Source: Elusimicrobiales bacterium
GTDB taxonomy: Bacteria; Elusimicrobiota; Elusimicrobia; Elusimicrobiales; UBA9959
DNA length: 63,517 bases
Reading direction: 5' to 3'
Assembly: GCA_023701245.1 (NCBI GenBank)
Contig: JAMPXK010000008.1
Coordinates: forward strand, 1-63,517
Both the position numbers and the translations under genes were made by a program. Under the pieces are notes generated by a model, which did no database searches, was not told the origin of the DNA, and saw only the letters and a program-made list of their open reading frames with translations. The first letter of the stretch is position 1, and every line of letters begins with the position of its first letter. Positions 11,684 through 57,202 of this stretch are shown here, one piece after another.

Positions 11684-11698
11684 TTTTCACGTGAAAAC
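11683..11698. promoter_or_regulatory. parS-like site 1
   Basis: GTTTTCACGTGAAAAC, a perfect 16-bp palindrome around the CACGTG core of ParB sites, 199 bp before parA. It overlaps the upstream stop codon. Confidence 0.85.
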
Positions 11699-11767: not shown

Positions 11768-11783
11768 GTTTTCACGTGAAAAC
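11768..11783. promoter_or_regulatory. parS-like site 2
   Basis: GTTTTCACGTGAAAAC, extended to a 20-bp palindrome by flanking TT/AA (11766-11785). 85 bp from site 1. Confidence 0.87.
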
Positions 11784-11841: not shown

Positions 11842-11857
11842 GTTTTCACGTGAAAAC
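11842..11857. promoter_or_regulatory. parS-like site 3
   Basis: A third identical GTTTTCACGTGAAAAC, 74 bp from site 2 and 24 bp before the parA ATG, so ParB binding here could also repress parAB. Confidence 0.87.
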
Positions 11858-13662: not shown

Positions 13663-14694
13663 ATGCGCCATCTGATCGCCGCGGCCCTGCTGGCCGCCGC
13701 ACCGGCGGCAGCGCAGCCCGAGGGGGAGAAAGGCCCGGCCTTCGCGGCCAAGTCCCCGGTCCCCGCCTATTTCGCCGCCGAGAAGAACCTGGCCAAGTAC
13801 TACCTTTACGGCGACGGCGGCTTCCACGCCGACTGGTACGTGGGCTACAACAACTGCTGGGTGGTAAAACTGCCGCCGGTGCCCGCCGGCAGCTACGCCA
13901 AGGCGTTCATCGGCGCCAAGCTGGGCCGCGCCAAGAACCTGTCCTGGCCCGCCTCCTGGGACACGGCGCCCATTCCCGGCAAGATCTACATGGCCCTCAA
14001 CCAGGCGCCCACGTTCAACTCCGACCACACCTATTTCCTGGTGGACGCGGCCGACCTGCCCCGCGAACCCCTGCCCAACGATTCCCTCGACGGGGTGGAC
14101 TCCGCCCGGTGGCTCTGGGCCGAGGTGCCGCTTTCGCGCGTTTCAGCTGAAAAGGAAAACTACCTGGCCCTCTGGTCCTCTTCGCGCTATTTCACGGCGG
14201 CGTCCAGCTCCCCCATCATCTCGGCCGCCCAGAGCGGCGGCGAAGAACAGAACGTCTGGCTGAACCGCTCCATAAAGGGCAATCCCCCGTCGGGCGAGGG
14301 CGTGCTGGAAACGCCCATCTCGGGCCTTAAGCCCGCCATCGCCATAAAACTGGTGCCCGCCAACGAGTACAAGGTCTACCTCAAAGGCTTCGCCGCCGAA
14401 GTGGGGCCCGAGGAGATCTCCGTCTCCTTTACCGCCATCGGCGAGGACATCCGCGCCGCCTGGCTGGAAGTCTCCTACGACAAGTTCGAGTGGCAGCGGG
14501 TCACGCGCTACATGTTCAAGGCCCCGTATTTCTGGAGTTTCGGGCGCGAAGAGATCTCCCGGGAAATGTTCTACCTGCGCGCCGCCGCCGTGGACAACCT
14601 GGAGAACACGGGCTACTCCATGCCCATCACGGTGCCCGCCGTACCGCAGGCGCCCGCCGTGCCGGCGGCCGGCGCTGCAGAGCGGACCCAATGA
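13663..14694 (+). CDS. Secreted protein of unknown function
   Basis: A 343-aa protein with a signal peptide (MRHLIAAALLAAAPAAAQ). The mature chain looks beta-rich with aromatic residues (KYYLYGDGGFHADWYVGYNNCWVVKL; WLEVSYDKFEWQRVTRYMF) and ends with an Ala/Pro/Val-rich tail. Late segments (EEISVSFTAIGEDIRAAWLEVSYD, FYLRAAAVDNLENTGYS) resemble an Ig/fibronectin-like sandwich, but I cannot name a family. It starts 15 nt after parB with GAGGT as SD, and its stop overlaps the asd start as ATGA. It is therefore co-expressed with parB and asd, an odd mix that may reflect only compact packing. Confidence 0.72.
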   Translation: MRHLIAAALLAAAPAAAQPEGEKGPAFAAKSPVPAYFAAEKNLAKYYLYGDGGFHADWYVGYNNCWVVKLPPVPAGSYAKAFIGAKLGRAKNLSWPASWDTAPIPGKIYMALNQAPTFNSDHTYFLVDAADLPREPLPNDSLDGVDSARWLWAEVPLSRVSAEKENYLALWSSSRYFTAASSSPIISAAQSGGEEQNVWLNRSIKGNPPSGEGVLETPISGLKPAIAIKLVPANEYKVYLKGFAAEVGPEEISVSFTAIGEDIRAAWLEVSYDKFEWQRVTRYMFKAPYFWSFGREEISREMFYLRAAAVDNLENTGYSMPITVPAVPQAPAVPAAGAAERTQ

Positions 14695-15695
14695 AAAAAT
14701 ACAACGTGGCCGTGGTAGGCGCTTCGGGCATGGTCGGCGGAGAACTGCTGGACCTGCTGGAAAGCCGCCGGTTCCCCGTCGGGGAATTCTATCCCTTCAA
14801 CTCCGGCCGCAGGGCCGCTTACGTAAAATTCCGCGGCCGCAGGTACGCCTGCGCGGCGCCGTCGCTGGCCGCGCTCAAGAAAGCGGACCTGGTCTTCTTC
14901 GTCTCCACCGACGAAGTGGCCGAGCGCTTCGCCCCGCGCCTGGCGGCGGCCGGCGTGCGCTGCATAGACGACTCCGCCCGCTTCCGGCTGGACAGCCGCG
15001 TGCCGCTGGTCATCCCCGAAGTGAACGGCGCAGAGCTTAAACCCTCCGCCAGGCTTATAGCCGGGCCCAACTGCACGCTGACCGGGGCCGCCGTGGCCCT
15101 GGCCGGTATCCGCCGCCGCTTCGGCATCAAAGAGCTGCGCCTGGCCACCTACCAGGCGGTATCCGGGGCCGGCAAGGCGGCCATGGGCCAGCTGGAGGAA
15201 GAACTGCGCGGCTATTTCAGGCGCGGCCGCGTCACGCGCGCCGCCGGCGCCTTCCCGCACCCCATAGCTTTCAACCTGTTCCCGCAGGTGGGCGGTTTCG
15301 ACGCCGCCGGCCATTCCGGAGAAGAGAACAAGGTGGAAGCCGAACTGAAGAAGATCTGGGGCGACTCGCGCCTGAAGATCAGTTCCACCGCCGTGCGCGT
15401 ACCAGTCCTGCGCGGTCATTCGCTCTCCGCCTGGGTCACCACCCGGCGCCCGTTCACGCTGGCGGCCCTGCAAAAAGAGCTGCGGCGCGCCCCCGGCCTG
15501 AAGTTTTTCGCGCGGCCCCAGGATTACCCTACCCCGCTGGCCCACGGCCACCGCACCAGCGTGGTTTACGCCGGGCGCCTGCGGCGGTCCAGGATCTCGC
15601 CGTACGAATTCCAGCTGTGGATAGTGTCGGACAATCTTTACAAGGGCGCGGCCCTGAACTCCGTGCAGATCGCGGAACTGCTGGCGCGCGCCTGA
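14691..15695 (+). CDS. asd: Aspartate-semialdehyde dehydrogenase
   Basis: Reduces aspartyl phosphate to aspartate semialdehyde, the branch to lysine, diaminopimelate, threonine and methionine. The 334-aa chain opens with the NADP motif VAVVGASGMVGGELL. The catalytic cysteine is in AGPNCTLTGAAVAL, slightly unlike the usual NPNCST. YQAVSGAGKAAMGQLEEEL and HPIAFNLFPQVG are typical, as are STAVRVPVLRGHS and the arginine-containing substrate region. The ATG at 14691 overlaps the previous stop and gives MKKYNVAVVGASG. The C-terminal LWIVSDNLYKGAALNSVQIAELL is canonical. DAP is needed for peptidoglycan, linking this gene to the envelope. Confidence 0.95.
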   Translation: MKKYNVAVVGASGMVGGELLDLLESRRFPVGEFYPFNSGRRAAYVKFRGRRYACAAPSLAALKKADLVFFVSTDEVAERFAPRLAAAGVRCIDDSARFRLDSRVPLVIPEVNGAELKPSARLIAGPNCTLTGAAVALAGIRRRFGIKELRLATYQAVSGAGKAAMGQLEEELRGYFRRGRVTRAAGAFPHPIAFNLFPQVGGFDAAGHSGEENKVEAELKKIWGDSRLKISSTAVRVPVLRGHSLSAWVTTRRPFTLAALQKELRRAPGLKFFARPQDYPTPLAHGHRTSVVYAGRLRRSRISPYEFQLWIVSDNLYKGAALNSVQIAELLARA

Positions 15696-50529: not shown

Positions 50530-50560
50530 ACGGGCCCCCCCGGGGGGCCCGTTTTATTTT
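50530..50560 (+). terminator. Terminator of nifS
   Basis: ACGGGCCCCC / GGGGGCCCGT with a 3-nt loop, then TTTTATTTT. Its T-tract touches the first activator palindrome at 50557. Confidence 0.88.
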
Positions 50561-50592
50561 CATATGAAAGGAAGTATTTTCATTTGAAAATA
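50557..50592. promoter_or_regulatory. Paired upstream activator palindromes (UAS) of the 50768 gene
   Basis: Site A: TTTCATATGAAA (perfect, 50558-50569). Site B: TATTTTCATTTGAAAATA (perfect 8-bp arms, 50575-50592). Centres are 20 bp apart, and about 118 and 138 bp upstream of the expected sigma-54 start. Similar sites (52867-52900) precede the second sigma-54 promoter. Likely binding sites of the Fis-type activator at 51513. Confidence 0.7.
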
Positions 50593-50675
50593 TTTTGCCG
50601 CGTCTTCCCGGCAAAATTACAGGGAAATTGATATTTCCCTATGCAGAACAGGACTGTCCTGGCTTGCGGTATTGT

Positions 50676-50691
50676 TGGCATAAAAATTGCT
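50676..50691 (+). promoter_or_regulatory. Sigma-54 promoter (-24/-12) of the secreted protein gene
   Basis: TGGCATAAAAATTGCT with exact GG-N10-GC spacing (GG 50677, GC 50689). Transcription should begin near 50702, 66 nt before the ATG. The 21 bp from 50676 are identical to 52965-52985. Confidence 0.85.
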
Positions 50692-50767
50692 CTGTATGGG
50701 TCAAGCGGGCCGTTAAAGAGGTGAGTGAGGGATGACGGCCCGCCCAGGATCTAAAGGAGCGACTAAA

Positions 50768-51334
50768 ATGACCAAAACCATGAAAACCATATTCGGCCTG
50801 GGCCTGGCGCTGGCGGCAATGCTGGCCGCGCGCCCCGCGCAGGCGGAAGCGACCATAGCCATGGGCGTGGAGGGCTACGTGCCCGGCGCCTACTCAAGGG
50901 CCGCCGAAATGCGCGCCGCCCAGCTGGAGCGCCTGGCCGCCGCCGCCGAAAGGCTGCAAAGTTCCGCGGACGCGGCCGGGGCCGAGGTGCTGCTGGCGGG
51001 GCTGTACTCCGGCTCTGCCGCGGCCGAAAACGCCGCACCGGTGCGCCTGGAAGCGGCCGCGGCGGCCTTGCCCGCCAGGAGCGAAAAGCGCTCTTTTGCC
51101 GGGGTCAAATCCGCCATAGAGGAGATAGGCGCCGACGAGCCCGCGGCCGGCGGCGCCGGCGAGGTGACGCCCGTTGATGCCGGGGCCGGTTCGCAAGAGG
51201 ACCCCATCGAGGCCGCTGACGCCGGCGAAGAAGAGGAAAAACCCACTCTCGGCGGCATGCTGCTGGCCGCCCTGATAGTGATAACCCTGGGCTTGCTGCT
51301 GTTCTACGCGCCGCTGCTGCTGGTGGCGGTGTAA
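50768..51334 (+). CDS. Secreted, C-terminally membrane-anchored protein under sigma-54 control
   Basis: A 188-aa protein. It has a signal peptide (MKTIFGLGLALAAMLAARPAQA) and a helical Ala-rich mature part (AAEMRAAQLERLAAAAERLQSSADAAGAE) that may form a coiled coil. A Gly/Ala/Asp/Glu-rich linker follows, and the chain ends with a strongly hydrophobic tail (MLLAALIVITLGLLLFYAPLLLVAV) like a membrane anchor. SD AAAGGAG lies 8 nt upstream. Its promoter is sigma-54 type and shares its sequence with the rpoN promoter. It lies convergent with the activator operon, 2 nt from the DHp-like gene stop. Role unknown; it may be the main output of the circuit. Confidence 0.8.
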   Translation: MTKTMKTIFGLGLALAAMLAARPAQAEATIAMGVEGYVPGAYSRAAEMRAAQLERLAAAAERLQSSADAAGAEVLLAGLYSGSAAAENAAPVRLEAAAAALPARSEKRSFAGVKSAIEEIGADEPAAGGAGEVTPVDAGAGSQEDPIEAADAGEEEEKPTLGGMLLAALIVITLGLLLFYAPLLLVAV

Positions 51335-51336
51335 GG

Positions 51337-51516
51337 TCAGGAAAGTTTGGAAAGCGCGGCGAGAGTCCGCTGTATCTCCTCCGCCGCCGCGGTCATCAGG
51401 GCCAGCATCTCCTGTTTCTCGGCCGCGGAGCAGTCCTTGTACAGGTCCGCCGCGCTCTTAAGGCTGGCGCATTTGGATTTCAGGTCGTGAAGGAGTTTCG
51501 AAGCGTCGGCGCTCAT
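51337..51516 (-). CDS. 59-aa orphan DHp-like protein (histidine phosphotransfer candidate)
   Basis: Not in longer-ORF predictions, but well supported: it starts within the activator stop (TGA/ATG overlap at 51513-51516) and keeps the same strand. The helical sequence has HDLKSKCASLKSAADLYKD at residues 10-28, matching the HDL(K/R) dimerization helix of histidine kinases, with the likely phospho-His at H10. A second helix follows (EKQEMLALMTAAAEEIQ, then TLAALSKLS). It has no HATPase domain, so it could receive phosphate from another kinase and pass it to the activator receiver. Alternatively it is only a coiled-coil binding partner. It appears to be in frame with no start ambiguity. Confidence 0.65.
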   Translation of the reverse strand: MSADASKLLHDLKSKCASLKSAADLYKDCSAAEKQEMLALMTAAAEEIQRTLAALSKLS

Positions 51517-52862
51517 TTTTCCGCCTCCTGGGAGAGGCCGCGCCGTTTAAGCGAGGCGTAAAGCAGCCGCGTGGAGATCTTGAGGTCGGCCATGGTTTTG
51601 GTGCGCACGCCGTTATTCTCACGCAGGTTCCTGGCTATCACTTCATCCGCTACGTTCTCCAGCGCGCTCTCCAGCCCGCGGGCCAGGGCGTCGGCGTAGA
51701 CGGCGTCGGCGCCGCCGTCGGCGCGCGCCGCGCGGACCGGCTGCCCCTTCAGGTGCTTCTTTACCGTGTCCAGGCCCACACGCCCTTCGGCGCCGCTGGA
51801 GAGCAGGTCTATGAATTTTTTCAGCTCCCGCACGTTGCCGGGCCAGGCGTAGGCCTCCAGTTGGGCCCTGGCTTCCGCCGTGAAGGACAGCCGCCGCCCG
51901 CCTTTCATGAAATGCTGCACCAGCAGGAAGATGTCCTCCCGGCGCTCCGCCAGCGGCTTCAGGGTCACGGTGTAGCCATGCACCCGTTGGAACAGGTCGA
52001 AGCGCATTTTGCCGCGGGCTATCAGGTCCTGCGGATCCTCCAGGGTGGCGCTGATGATGCGGAAATCCGAGCGCTCGGGCTTTTCCGAGCCCAGCGGGTA
52101 GAAGCAGCGCTCCTCCAGGGCCTTGAGCAGCTTCATCTGCATGTTCAGGCTCATCGTGCCTATCTCGTCGAGGAACAGCGTGCCGTTGTGCGCCTCCAGC
52201 AGGCGGCCCTTGCGGGAGTCGGCCGCGCCGGTGAACGCGCCTTTGCGGTAGCCGAAAAGTTCCGCTTCCAGCAGGTCCTCGGTATAGGCCGAGCAGTTGA
52301 TGGCCACAAAAGCGCCTTCCCGGCCGGAATGTTCATGCAGCACCCGGGCCAGCGAGGTCTTGCCGGTGCCCGACGGGCCCAGCAGAAGCAGGGGCAGCTC
52401 GGTCGGGGCGTATTTCAGCGCCTCGCCCACCATGTCCCTGGTGGCGCGGTCGCCGGTTATGAAAGCCGAGGCGAAAATATCCGAGGCGCCGGCCGCGCGG
52501 CGGTTCTGGAGGAACTTGCGCAGGAGTTCGGCCACGTTGGAGCCCTCGTTGCCCTTGGCGTAGAAGTCGCGCGCGCCCAGTTCGTAGGCGCGGTCTATGA
52601 TGGCGTCCGAGTCCGAACTGGAGACCACCACCGCGTAGACGCCCCGGGCCGCGGCGGCGGCTATGGCCTTCAGCCCGGAGTAGTCGTCCGAGGGGCCCAG
52701 CATCAGGTCGAAGAAGCCCAGGTGGTAGCGGTTGGTCTCCAGCTTTTTCAGGGCGGTCTTCAGGTCGGCGGCCAGGTCCACGTTATGTCCGGCCAGCTGG
52801 GAGGTCATCACTTTCTGGGCCAGCTTGTCGTCTTCCAGCACGAAAATATCGAGTTTTTCCAT
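51513..52862 (-). CDS. Sigma-54-dependent response regulator (REC-AAA+-Fis)
   Basis: A 449-aa NtrC-type activator that remodels RNA polymerase-sigma-54. The receiver (1-120) has EDD (10-12), D52 in LGFFDLMLG, and K103 in FYAKG. The AAA+ domain (about 130-365) has Walker A GPSGTGKT (162-169), GAFTGA (208-213), the sigma-54 contact loop, Walker B LFLDEIG (229-235) and the WPGNVRELKKF region. The Fis-type HTH at the end (VIARNLRENNGVRTKTMADLKISTRLLYASLKRRG) is intact. The start at 52862 (MEKLDIFVLEDD) fits the receiver; the in-frame codon 30 nt upstream overlaps activator site C. It is divergent from the rpoN promoter, so it may regulate its own gene. Confidence 0.93.
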   Translation of the reverse strand: MEKLDIFVLEDDKLAQKVMTSQLAGHNVDLAADLKTALKKLETNRYHLGFFDLMLGPSDDYSGLKAIAAAAARGVYAVVVSSSDSDAIIDRAYELGARDFYAKGNEGSNVAELLRKFLQNRRAAGASDIFASAFITGDRATRDMVGEALKYAPTELPLLLLGPSGTGKTSLARVLHEHSGREGAFVAINCSAYTEDLLEAELFGYRKGAFTGAADSRKGRLLEAHNGTLFLDEIGTMSLNMQMKLLKALEERCFYPLGSEKPERSDFRIISATLEDPQDLIARGKMRFDLFQRVHGYTVTLKPLAERREDIFLLVQHFMKGGRRLSFTAEARAQLEAYAWPGNVRELKKFIDLLSSGAEGRVGLDTVKKHLKGQPVRAARADGGADAVYADALARGLESALENVADEVIARNLRENNGVRTKTMADLKISTRLLYASLKRRGLSQEAEK

Positions 52863-52866
52863 TTTC

Positions 52867-52900
52867 TTTTCCCTTGAAAATAAGATTTTCAATTGAGAAT
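52867..52900. promoter_or_regulatory. Paired upstream activator palindromes (UAS) of the rpoN promoter
   Basis: Site C: TTTTCCCTTGAAAA (52867-52880). Site D: ATTTTCAATTGAGAAT (52885-52900). Both match the TTTTCAnnTGAAAA pattern of sites A and B with one or two changes. Centres are 19 bp apart and about 98 and 118 bp upstream of the expected sigma-54 start; the pair also lies within 40 nt of the activator start. Confidence 0.65.
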
Positions 52901-52964
52901 GTTATCTACGTGGATATTATACAGAAAAGACGCTCTCCGTGGGGGCCGCCGGCCGCGCCCTGTA

Positions 52965-52980
52965 TGGCATAAAAATTGCT
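52965..52980 (+). promoter_or_regulatory. Sigma-54 promoter (-24/-12) of the peptide-rpoN operon
   Basis: TGGCATAAAAATTGCT with exact GG-N10-GC spacing (GG 52966, GC 52978), identical to the promoter at 50676, including the 5 following bases. Start expected near 52991, 35 nt before the peptide gene. It implies that rpoN drives its own transcription. Confidence 0.85.
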
Positions 52981-53025
52981 CTGTAGCGGGCATACGGAGT
53001 ATAATATCAGCGGGCGGGAGGCAAG

Positions 53026-53127
53026 ATGGGTTTTTTTAACATTCAGTACCTGTGGGTGTTCTCGTACTTCGGCGGCGTGTTCGGCGGCGGCGGTTTTGGC
53101 GGCCTGCCGGGGCGCTTCAACGTTTAA
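53026..53127 (+). CDS. 33-aa Gly/Phe-rich hydrophobic peptide
   Basis: A short ORF with a good SD (GGGAGG at 53016-53021) and ATG at 53026, first gene after the sigma-54 promoter and 17 nt before rpoN. The peptide has an aromatic, hydrophobic N-terminal half (GFFNIQYLWVFSYFGG) and a Gly-rich second half ending PGRFNV. Too short for a signal peptide, but a small membrane peptide, a toxin-like or a signalling peptide would fit. It may also be a leader peptide for rpoN. Whether it is translated is not proven; the SD, position and codon use support it. Confidence 0.55.
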   Translation: MGFFNIQYLWVFSYFGGVFGGGGFGGLPGRFNV

Positions 53128-53144
53128 GCAGAGAGGTTCTCCTC

Positions 53145-54206
53145 ATGAAGTTCAAACTGCAGGCGTCTTCCAGGGCTAAGGTTTCGGCCGCCGTCATGGG
53201 CGCGCTTAAAATGGCGCAGATGGCGGAGATGCCGGAAGAGGAATTCGAGAAATTCCTCAAGGGCCTGGAATCCAACCGGTTCTTCGTGCTGCTCAAAGCC
53301 GCGGGCGCGGTGAACCTGGCGGAGTTCCCGGCGGCGCGCTACGCCGCGCGGCGCTACGCCGGCTACGGGCTTAAACTTTCGGGCGGCGGCCTGCCGGAGC
53401 TGGCCGATGGCGCCGGGGACCTGGTGGCGCTGATCCAGGCCGTAGGCCAGGAAAAATTCGAGGCGTGCTTTTTGCGCGACGCCGTGATGAGCGACGTGCA
53501 GCGCGCCGAGGAATGCGATATTACCGTTAAAGACGCCGAGCGGCTGCGGGACTTCGTCGACAGGGCTTTCATACAGGCCGAGTTCGAGGGCGCGCCGGAG
53601 GCCCCGGCGGCGCAGGTCTACAGCGCCGTGGCCGGCATAGAGCTGGAGAACGGCACGCCGGTGCTGGCTTTCTTCCACCGGGAGATCTGGAAAGGCCGCT
53701 ACAAGGTGGACCAGGAAAAACTGGCCGAACTGACCCGCGGCCTGCCCCCGGCCGAACGCGCCGGGGTGGAGAAGACGGTGAAGCGCCTGGAATTCGCCGA
53801 CAAGCGCAAGACCACGCTCTACCGCGCCCTGGAGATAATGCTGAATATCCAGGCGGAGTACCTGGTCAGCGGCGAGCCCGGCCGGCGGCGGCCGCTTTCG
53901 CAGAAAACTCTGGCCAGGAACCTGGAGGCGCACCCCAGCGTCATCAACCGGCTGGTCTCCAATAAATCCGTGCAGCTGCCCTGGGGCACCGAGGCGCCCC
54001 TGGACGTGCTGCTGCCCAGCGCCAAGCAGGTGAACCTGGAGCGGCTTTACGCCCTGGCCGCCCAAAAGCCGGACCTGAGCGACGAGGGGTTGCGGGCGGA
54101 ACTGGCGGCCGCGCACGGGGTAAAACTTTCCCGGCGGTCCATAGCGCAGTACCGCAAGGAACTTTCCCTGGCCGCCGGCGGGCGCAGGCCCGCCGAAAGC
54201 GATTGA
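53145..54206 (+). CDS. rpoN: Divergent, compact sigma-54 factor (RpoN-like)
   Basis: A 353-aa protein, shorter than the usual 430-480. Region I at the N-terminus (about 15-47, VMGALKMAQMAEMPEEEFEKFLKGLESN) aligns with the canonical activator-interacting helices (LQ..IxLLQLS..EL...I...LE.NP). The core-binding part (about 110-200) is recognisable. The DNA-binding region has a helix RKTTLYRALEIMLNIQAEYLVSG (221-243), then the HTH PLSQKTLARNLEAHPSVINRLVSNKSVQLPWG (250-281) and the RpoN box SRRSIAQYRK (329-338), usually ARRTVAKYRE. The acidic region II and the spacer before the RpoN box are reduced. SD is weak; the peptide gene ends 17 nt upstream. It could be the sole rpoN or a second copy. Confidence 0.85.
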   Translation: MKFKLQASSRAKVSAAVMGALKMAQMAEMPEEEFEKFLKGLESNRFFVLLKAAGAVNLAEFPAARYAARRYAGYGLKLSGGGLPELADGAGDLVALIQAVGQEKFEACFLRDAVMSDVQRAEECDITVKDAERLRDFVDRAFIQAEFEGAPEAPAAQVYSAVAGIELENGTPVLAFFHREIWKGRYKVDQEKLAELTRGLPPAERAGVEKTVKRLEFADKRKTTLYRALEIMLNIQAEYLVSGEPGRRRPLSQKTLARNLEAHPSVINRLVSNKSVQLPWGTEAPLDVLLPSAKQVNLERLYALAAQKPDLSDEGLRAELAAAHGVKLSRRSIAQYRKELSLAAGGRRPAESD

Positions 54207-55513: not shown

Positions 55514-57202
55514 ATGAACAAACTTTCCGCCGCCGCCGTCTGTCTGCTTTCCTGCTGCGCCGCCTGGGCGGCCGCGTTCTTTTCCGGCCTGGCCGGCCCC
55601 TGGGCCATATTGCTCGGGGCGTTCCTGGGCGCCGGCCTGGCGGCCGCGCTGTGTTACGCGCTGGCCCGGCCCTCCGGCGGCGGGGAGTCGGAGCTGGCCA
55701 TAGTGCAGCTGGCCATGTCCAACACCTCCGACCTGGTGGCCGTGGTGGACCTGGAAGGCCGCCGCATCTACAACAGCCCCTCCTATTCCCTGCTCAGGGA
55801 CCCCGCGCAGCTTAAGGGCACGGATTCTTTCAACGAGATCCATCCCGAGGACCGGGAAAAAGTGCGCAAGATCTTCAGCCGGACGGTGGCCACCGGCAAG
55901 GGCGAGCGGGCGGAATACCGCTTCCTGCTGCCGGACAAGACGGTGCGCTACATAGAGTCCATGGGCAACGTCATAAACGGACCCGACGGCAAACCCGGCC
56001 GCGTGGTCATAGTTTCGCGCGACGTCACCGAGCGCAAGGCGCTGGAGGGCCAGCTGCGGCAGGCGCAGAAGATGGAAGCCCTCGGCCAGCTGGCCGGCGG
56101 GGTGGCGCACGATTTCAACAATATCATCACGTCGCTGGCGGCCTACGCGGACTTCATCGCCCGCTCGCCCTCGGCCGGCGCGCAGGTGGCGGAGGACGCG
56201 GCGGAGATAAAAAAAGTCTGCGAGCGCGCGGCGGGCCTGTCGCGGCAGCTGCTGGCTTTCAGCCGCAAGCAGGTGCTGTCGCCGCGCATCATGGACCTCA
56301 ACGGCATCGCCGCCGGGGTGCAGAAGATGCTGGCGCGCCTGATAGGCGCCAACATTGACCTGGTGATAGAAAAAAGCCCGGCGCCCGTGCCCGCCCTGGT
56401 GGACCCCGGGCAGATAGAGCAGGTGCTGCTGAACCTGGCCGTCAACGCGCGCGACGCCATGCCGGCGGGCGGCCGGCTGGTCATAAAAGTTTTTTCCTGC
56501 GAGTACACCGATTACCTGCTGGGCTCCGATATCGTGCCCGGCCGGTACGCGGTCATTTCCGTGACCGATACCGGCACCGGCATGCCGCCCGAAGTGAAGG
56601 CGCGCGTGTTCGAACCTTTCTTCACCACCAAGAGCCCCGGCTCCGGCACGGGGCTGGGCCTGTCCACGGCTTACGGCATAGTGCGCCAGAGCGGCGGCTA
56701 TATCTCCGTGGAAAGCGAACCCGGCCGGGGCACCGCCTTCTCGGTGTACCTGCCGCTGTCCGAGCGGGAACCGGAAAGCGCGACCGCCTCCGGAACCCTG
56801 CCGGCGCTGCGCCGGGGCACGGAGACCATCCTGCTGGTGGAGGACGACACCGTGCTGCGCTCCGTGACCAGGCGCACCCTGCAGGAGAACGGCTACCAGG
56901 TGCTGGAGGCCGCCACGGACAGCGAAGCGCTGCTGCTGGCCGAAGAACGCCACAAAGGGAAAATAGACCTTATCCTGGCCGACATCGTCCTGCCCGGGAT
57001 GAACGGTTTCGACCTGGCCCAGCGCGTGGCCGCCGCCAATCCGGGCATCGCCCGGGTCTATATCTCCGGCTACACGGACCCGGACATCATAAAAGCCGAG
57101 TTCATAACCCCGGAAACCCCGCTGATACAGAAACCTTTTACCACGGACGCGCTGCTGTTCGGCCTGCGCGCGGCCCTGGAAGCCAAAAAGAAGAAGACCT
57201 GA
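55514..57202 (+). CDS. Hybrid sensor histidine kinase (TM-PAS-HisKA-HATPase-REC)
   Basis: A 562-aa kinase. Two close hydrophobic helices (about 5-25 and 27-50, AAAVCLLSCCAAWAAAFF and PWAILLGAFLGAGLAAALCYAL) anchor it, with almost no periplasmic loop. A PAS domain (about 65-175, AMSNTSDLVAVVDLEGRRIYNS) is followed by HisKA with LAGGVAHDFNNII (H199), HATPase (NLAVNARDAMPAGG, GTGLGLSTAYGIV), and a receiver with D490 in DLILADIVLPGMNG. The DHp motif and the receiver placement match the kinase at 35696, so the two are close paralogs in their catalytic half. No output regulator is adjacent. It may feed the free response regulators or the activator at 51513. Confidence 0.93.
   Translation: MNKLSAAAVCLLSCCAAWAAAFFSGLAGPWAILLGAFLGAGLAAALCYALARPSGGGESELAIVQLAMSNTSDLVAVVDLEGRRIYNSPSYSLLRDPAQLKGTDSFNEIHPEDREKVRKIFSRTVATGKGERAEYRFLLPDKTVRYIESMGNVINGPDGKPGRVVIVSRDVTERKALEGQLRQAQKMEALGQLAGGVAHDFNNIITSLAAYADFIARSPSAGAQVAEDAAEIKKVCERAAGLSRQLLAFSRKQVLSPRIMDLNGIAAGVQKMLARLIGANIDLVIEKSPAPVPALVDPGQIEQVLLNLAVNARDAMPAGGRLVIKVFSCEYTDYLLGSDIVPGRYAVISVTDTGTGMPPEVKARVFEPFFTTKSPGSGTGLGLSTAYGIVRQSGGYISVESEPGRGTAFSVYLPLSEREPESATASGTLPALRRGTETILLVEDDTVLRSVTRRTLQENGYQVLEAATDSEALLLAEERHKGKIDLILADIVLPGMNGFDLAQRVAAANPGIARVYISGYTDPDIIKAEFITPETPLIQKPFTTDALLFGLRAALEAKKKKT

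Follow-up and report, generated by a model that had tools for sequence, protein, structure and literature searches.

In an Elusimicrobiales bacterium, positions 50,530 to 54,206 of contig JAMPXK010000008.1 (the window, by which we mean the whole 63,517-nucleotide stretch analysed) probably carry a dedicated sigma-54 module, comprising a compact sigma-54 factor, a bacterial enhancer-binding protein (bEBP), a 59-aa DHp-like protein, a sigma-54 promoter for the factor's own gene and secreted targets, which a phosphorelay would control. Judging from sequence, we put the probability of this reading at roughly 0.74. A dedicated circuit is supported because gene order is conserved, promoters are shared, the same palindromes lie upstream of them, and promoter motif and sigma-54 factor co-occur across genomes. 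The five genes and two -24/-12 promoters proposed by a first-pass annotation were all found in place. Its description of the circuit as self-contained did not hold, since the probable sensor kinase is encoded in another cluster, on contig C26 of the window genome. Below, L, G and C label loci, genomes and contigs, and G000 is the window genome (2.55 Mb).

Co-occurrence of the promoter motif and the sigma-54 gene

Proteins matching the window sigma-54 at 1e-4 are encoded in 89 of 147 genomes of the class and fall into two score groups: group A (the window type, above ~240 bits) and group B (roughly 30% identical). The window's -24/-12 elements, both on the + strand, share TGGCATAAAAATTGCTCTGTA. 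One (50676–50692) precedes the gene for a secreted protein (50768–51334, +, 188 aa) and the other (52965–52981) precedes a 33-aa open reading frame (ORF; 53026–53127, +) and the group-A sigma-54 gene (53145–54206, +, 353 aa). The annotation's claim of two matching sigma-54 promoters was borne out: they are the sole matches to TGGCATN5TTGCTCTG in the 2.55-Mb genome, and the reversed control gave 0. When TGGCAYN5TTGCTCY and the sigma-54 factor were both searched in the same 59 genomes of the family, the motif was present in 29 of 32 genomes with group-A sigma-54 versus 7 of 27 without (Fisher 4e-7; both 29, sigma-54 only 3, motif only 7, neither 20; a 71%-identical sigma-54 fragment in G153 was counted as present), and the reversed motif gave 3 matches in total. 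The motif-only genomes (G148, G155, G156, G167, G172, G176 and G177) are less than 90% complete except G156, which has the bEBP and DHp genes (L163) and in which no sigma-54 was found. The exact motif TGGCAYN5TTGCTCTG is rare beyond the family, occurring in 8 of 147 class genomes, six of them within it. The fetched family loci contain 72 distinct strict sites; a called gene follows 71 of them, at no more than 130 bp in 64 cases, and two sites fall inside called genes.

Conservation of gene order

Forty of the 43 group-A places outside the window genome were fetched (the three lowest-scoring were omitted, and several genomes gave more than one locus), and their genes were called with a home-made caller that gives approximate starts. 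Within 4 kb of the group-A sigma-54 gene, a bEBP gene is present in 25 of 41 loci and a DHp gene in 25 of 41 (two weak); both occur together in 22 of 41 class loci, the window included, as expected if the neighbourhood is conserved in relatives. Gene order in other families is mostly bEBP-DHp-sigma-54 on one strand, and in the window's family the sigma-54 gene is divergent. In G187 (L165), nifU-like, nifS-like and MORN-repeat genes (by eye) adjoin, with nothing called between them, where the window has the module, and the group-A sigma-54 gene of that genome sits on a different contig; the module's place therefore varies. The bEBP and DHp genes touch in all 50 pairs that passed the filter, with an overlap of 4 bp in 30 of them. 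That these are chance neighbours whose genes act separately and whose promoter matches are incidental is very improbable: one or both partners are missing nearby in 19 of the 41 sigma-54 loci, but co-occurrence, fixed-spacing shared palindromes, touching genes and class-wide synteny all argue against coincidence.

Paired palindromes and a probable composite promoter

Tandem palindromes of the form TTTTCANNTGAAAA, 19–20 bp apart, lie upstream of both window promoters and of most sites in relatives, mostly 75–125 bp from the -24/-12 element. Ahead of the secreted-protein promoter, TTTTCATATGAAAG (50557–50570, +) and TTTTCATTTGAAAA (50577–50590, +) match 11/12 and 12/12 palindrome positions; the second pair (52867–52880 and 52886–52899, +) precedes the sigma-54-gene promoter and is immediately upstream of the bEBP start. 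The palindrome was spotted by eye at the window promoters and then tested elsewhere, so that the window sites are not independent evidence. It is present at 48 of 64 sites of the strict set, with a spacing of 20 bp in 26 pairs and 19 bp in nine. With the looser motif, a palindrome at ≥9/12 accompanies 61 of 88 sites, versus 270 of 3000 control windows drawn from the fetched loci. By position and symmetry, these pairs are probable bEBP sites, and together with the -24/-12 element they provide a searchable signature for target operons in Elusimicrobiota.

The genome-wide palindrome search also returned three one-mismatch sites (C20, C26:70529 and window 14140). An exact palindrome in C58 was rejected as a regulon member; it lies inside overlapping genes with no -24/-12 match. 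Three TTTTCACGTGAAAA sites (window 11684–11697, 11769–11782 and 11843–11856) were likewise rejected: they adjoin parA/parB and are presumably parS-like. The neighbourhood of these sites, with dnaA-, dnaN-, gyrB- and gyrA-like genes (by eye) and parA/parB, suggests that the window lies near the origin.

The promoter of the sigma-54 gene has a further feature. An exact TATAAT follows TTGCTC by 17–18 bp at 16 of 19 sigma-54-gene sites versus 0 of 53 other sites; in the window, this sigma-70-like promoter spans 52976–53005 (+; TTGCTC 52976–52981, 18 bp, TATAAT 53000–53005). Sigma-70 and sigma-54 promoters thus seem to overlap at this gene, and because TTGCTC contains the TTGC of the -12 element, the sigma-70 promoter would use TTGCTC as its -35. 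A -12 element doubling as a -35 is a testable promoter design. The 16 of 19 count is also what would be expected if the -24/-12 sites were activator-dependent sigma-70 promoters and not sigma-54 promoters at all; this explanation is improbable, given the 0 of 53 at other sites and the tracking of the motif with the sigma-54 gene across genomes.

The bEBP-DHp genes, transcribed divergently, have their own -10-like TATAAT (52916–52921, -, ~54 bp upstream of the bEBP start). A TATAAT directed to the bEBP gene is present in 25 of 26 divergent intergenic regions and is separated from the called bEBP start by a palindrome in 24 of the 26 (both counted without a control set). Since the palindromes are located between the TATAAT and the start of the bEBP gene, this arrangement suggests bEBP autorepression. 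The positive loop on the sigma-54 gene and a secreted target that had been proposed is supported, but not as a simple loop, in view of the embedded sigma-70-like promoter and the possible self-repression of the activator.

The sigma-54 factor, its activator and the DHp-like protein

The window sigma-54 matches PF04552 at 56 bits (cut-off 22.8); 48 of 48 aligned members carry this domain, and the profile retrieves PDB sigma-54 chains at 8e-22. Its RpoN box reads SRRSIAQYR (by eye), and the protein thus combines the DNA-binding domain and the RpoN box by which a sigma-54 factor is recognized. It scores 55.8 bits against TIGR02395, under the equivalog cut-off of 277 bits, and on these sequence scores is a divergent relative. 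PF04963, the core-binding domain, had zero matches across the whole window genome. A second compact sigma-54 gene is present at L008:2942–6524 (contig C83), beside a histidine kinase and an NtrC-type regulator; the search for a second canonical rpoN therefore recovered a second gene, but neither copy is canonical in Pfam terms. The genome accordingly has two sigma-54 genes, each near a bEBP, as in specialized systems with more than one sigma-54 and an activator for each; a third, weak PF00158 match (31.5 bits) lies on contig C26. A bacterium of a little-cultured phylum thus keeps two sigma-54 genes, each near one activator, and the one in the window is linked with secreted proteins and, among relatives, with peptide natural products.

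The bEBP (51513–52862, -) matches Response_reg at 37.6 bits (cut-off 30.2) and Sigma54_activat at 185.8 bits. Its GAFTGA motif can be read intact in the translation, as annotated, and with an AAA+ domain and a receiver the protein is of the NtrC type. Residues 7–442 align to the end of TIGR02915, below that model's cut-off; the Fis-type helices at the C-terminus were read by eye only, and none of the Pfam matches listed is a helix-turn-helix family.

The DHp gene (51337–51516, -) overlaps the bEBP gene by 4 bp, confirming that the two are coupled. Its His10 is invariant among relatives (29 of 29 sequences), and 11 of the 29 give a weak HisKA match. In L062 (8354–9691), a DHp stretch takes the place of the expected Fis-type domain at the end of a bEBP frame, an apparent natural fusion. 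Previously labeled an orphan, the 59-aa protein is better read, we infer, as a phosphorelay intermediate, which would make it a candidate minimal histidine phosphotransfer (HPt) protein. Alternatively, in the same module, the DHp-like protein might be a bEBP phosphatase, a sequestering partner or a decoy, with kinases phosphorylating the bEBP directly. DHp domains can dephosphorylate receivers, and tight DHp-bEBP gene coupling would fit any partner role; PhyT, moreover, has a dual sequestering and phosphotransfer role as described in the accessible part of PMC5898713. We consider such a non-relay function less likely than not, because a hybrid kinase ending in a receiver, placed next to the trio (bEBP, DHp-like protein and sigma-54), is a layout that needs an HPt protein, and His10 is invariant.

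A candidate input cluster

A cluster encoding a TldD/TldE-type pair, a 60–70-aa exported peptide, a small radical-SAM protein, a solute-binding protein and a kinase lies beside the trio in several relatives and, in the window genome, at the end of contig C26 (L158 8717–14714). The radical-SAM protein of L158 scores below cut-off, and the solute-binding protein gives a weak SBP_bac_5 match in L046 and no match for the L158 copy. Genomes with group A encode this solute-binding protein in 22 of 32 cases, those without it in 3 of 27 (p 1e-5), and kinases of the cluster's family are located directly upstream of sigma-54 in L060, L061 and L066 and nearby in L057. The six loci scanned all have a 2'-deoxyguanosine-II (2'-dG-II) aptamer (RF03165, 82–86 bits, gathering 60) ahead of the peptide; the window-genome copy, at L158:11473–11543 (C26:71472–71542), scores 84.9 bits and is followed by a terminator-like hairpin, with the TldD/TldE-type pair on its upstream side. 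Alignment also placed the aptamer in L159 and L045, not in L050, and aptamer plus terminator-like hairpin occur in 8 of 9 loci examined. The input to the module is likely the hybrid kinase of this cluster behind its 2'-dG-II riboswitch.

The cluster could instead signal to other regulators while the trio answers another kinase, an alternative that we regard as a real contender with less than even odds. Consistent with it, the cluster is on a separate contig in the window genome, the solute-binding protein is missing from 10 of the 32 group-A genomes, and 53 of the 59 family genomes carry 2'-dG-II aptamers (as many as nine in one genome, three in the window genome), also where group A is absent. 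Against it stand the adjoining of cluster and trio on one contig in several relatives, the kinases next to sigma-54 and the co-occurrence of solute-binding protein and group A.

Several neighbouring observations concern these elements. The N-terminal 177 residues of the L158 kinase (14184–14714) are 89% identical to L046:12574–14256, from a different genus, and the sigma-54 proteins are just 65% identical; exchange or strong constraint may account for this. A further window-genome aptamer precedes a secreted metallo-beta-lactamase-fold protein, and such a protein is next in 5 of 10 further 2'-dG-II places (L219 (4360–5346), L221, L225, L227 and L228; Pfam was run on L219 only). We take these proteins to resemble the ComEC C-terminal domain, and they are perhaps involved in DNA scavenging. 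In the window itself, an Rfam scan found two tRNAs only, and a PAS-HATPase-receiver hybrid kinase at 55514–57202, just past the module, showed no sign of belonging to it.

Probable targets of the module

The window's secreted protein has a signal-like N-terminus and a hydrophobic C-terminal segment, and its relatives occur in ten distinct loci, window included. Neither it nor the 33-aa ORF has a significant Pfam or NCBIfam family. The ORF, rich in Gly and aromatic residues and preceded by a Shine-Dalgarno-like GGGAGG, had been annotated as part of the module; it is present, but 31–33-aa counterparts were seen just in L040, L045, L046 and likely L153, with none at the remaining sigma-54 loci listed, and we regard it as a real, optional gene.

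Of the first genes behind the 64 strict sites, 31 encode an N-terminus that a crude rule classes as signal-like, and 18 encode at most 80 aa. A short first ORF with a CxxxCxxC protein within 5 kb, a layout resembling operons for ribosomally synthesized and post-translationally modified peptides (RiPPs), follows 7 of 52 sites versus 0.27% of 1500 control positions, a count that is blind to the LanKC cluster in L171. That cluster (L171:4379–10596), of class III lanthipeptide type, encodes four 36-aa precursors, LanKC and an ABC exporter, with LanKC and precursor above cut-offs; it lies behind a sigma-54 site with paired palindromes and adjoins a secreted protein-DHp-bEBP-sigma-54 block. In L162, four copies of the motif precede seven 34-aa ORFs and one of 36 aa, and two radical-SAM enzymes are encoded there as well. 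Only in relatives was a promoter seen ahead of both a precursor and a maturase; neither of the window's two promoters is followed by a RiPP enzyme. The targets in relatives thus appear to be secreted proteins and a subset of RiPP-like operons.

Proposed mechanism and its weighing

In the proposed mechanism, sensing would fall to a membrane hybrid kinase made up of HisKA, HATPase and a C-terminal receiver, whose gene accompanies those of the small exported peptide, the radical-SAM enzyme and the solute-binding protein; the signal would perhaps be the modified peptide. Phosphate would pass from the kinase to its own receiver, to His10 of the DHp-like protein and on to Asp52 of the bEBP. The bEBP, bound to the paired palindromes, would then drive open complex formation by the compact sigma-54 holoenzyme at the secreted-protein and sigma-54 promoters; from the same palindromes it would block its own promoter, so that activated bEBP would raise sigma-54 and lower itself. 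Before the signal, the sigma-70 promoter overlapping the sigma-54 site would supply basal sigma-54 (priming). The silent sigma-54 holoenzyme and the sigma-70 holoenzyme would exclude each other, and as the former would occlude the sigma-70 promoter, the sigma-54 gene should be low without signal and rise with it. Secreted proteins would be the output, together with the optional Gly-rich peptide; in relatives, some RiPP-like operons would be added.

More tentatively, the whole may be a portable island in which a specialized sigma-54, its activator, a 59-aa relay and a hybrid kinase form a switch that senses a peptide and controls RiPPs and surface proteins, gated through the 2'-deoxyguanosine riboswitch by DNA breakdown products. 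The same reserve covers the three-part promoter logic of that picture: sigma-70 priming via the -12 element, sigma-54 activation and activator self-repression.

A number of results weigh against the dedicated module, beyond the 19 loci without one or both partners and the 10 group-A genomes without the solute-binding protein. The predicted sigma-54 model is of low confidence (predicted local distance difference test score 62.8), with template-modeling scores to RpoN of ~0.2–0.3, and the motif occurs in seven genomes in which no group-A sigma-54 was detected, among them G156, which is 92% complete. HisKA gave no match on the window's own DHp-like protein, hhalign of the H-box returned a probability of 39%, indicating weak homology, and a PDB search with the DHp profile retrieved no related chain, just unrelated repeat proteins at E 0.05 or worse. 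Contig C26 ends at residue 177 of its kinase, so that the receiver of this kinase is unseen, and the kinase cluster is off the window contig. Response_reg is found in just 5 of 10 members of the kinase family (best E 0.002); the profile comparison of kinase and bEBP receivers was weak (probability 2%, P 0.025), and the fold was therefore predicted. Sigma-54 control of the kinase cluster was considered and rejected, since of nine loci examined L045 alone has a strict site ahead of the peptide. A CxxxCxxC protein alone lies within 5 kb of 13 of 52 sites versus 13% of controls, just ~2-fold enrichment, and in the window genome two promoters only were seen, one serving the secreted protein and the other the 33-aa ORF plus sigma-54, neither of them in front of a RiPP enzyme.

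Comparison with known systems

As a rule, many activators share a single sigma-54 factor, a point made in the available part of PMC11999139, which also describes the cognate pairs RpoN1-NifA, RpoN2-FleQ and RpoN3-AprX of Cereibacter (Rhodobacter) sphaeroides. The module resembles that system in that one cell has several sigma-54 paralogues, each matched to an activator and a gene set of its own, and AprX too has a receiver (PMC11999139, same part). It differs in that the Elusimicrobiota trio genes adjoin, DHp included, and in its targets, which comprise secreted proteins along with some RiPP-like operons; for C. sphaeroides, the portion of the article available states that no kinase is encoded near aprX. 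Rhizobium/Mesorhizobium rpoN2 is likewise a specialized sigma-54 gene in an operon, prxS-rpoN2, activated by the bEBP NifA. It is expressed from the prxS promoter, with a further weak promoter in R. etli, and the accessible sections of that source (PMC3538637) describe no TATAAT overlapping the -12. Predicted sigma-54 sites at rpoN genes are reported for several classes in PMC12316311, in whose available text 'Elusimicrob-' is absent, and a 2011 survey (PMC3162934, in the part available) lists Elusimicrobium minutum without sigma-54 and its activators. Within the literature searched, which on sigma-54 in this phylum yielded just that survey and one metagenome paper, the sigma-54 biology of Elusimicrobiota looks little described.

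The DHp-like protein resembles Spo0B, ChpT and PhyT, which derive from kinases and carry phosphate between a receiver and an output regulator (available parts of PMC5898713 and, for ChpT, PMC3433190); it differs in its length of just 59 aa, in consisting of a DHp-like stretch that lacks a catalytic domain, and in feeding, as we infer, a sigma-54 activator. The 2'-dG-II riboswitch corresponds to RF03165, put to a different use ahead of a peptide/kinase signaling cluster; the accessible text of PMC9295807, on this riboswitch, does not mention 'Elusimicrobi-'. Among target operons, the L171 cluster is like known class III lanthipeptide clusters, and the radical-SAM/SPASM enzymes that follow short ORFs elsewhere are like radical-SAM RiPP clusters, below RiPP-specific cut-offs; unlike known RiPP clusters, these operons follow a sigma-54-type site equipped with paired palindromes. 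A literature search combining RiPP, sigma-54 and enhancer binding protein returned nothing on such control by title and abstract. Literature coverage was partial, with most subscription papers outside it. Specialized RpoN-bEBP pairs and kinase-derived phosphotransferases are already known; as far as our searches tell, what is new here is their combination, the targets and the promoter design.

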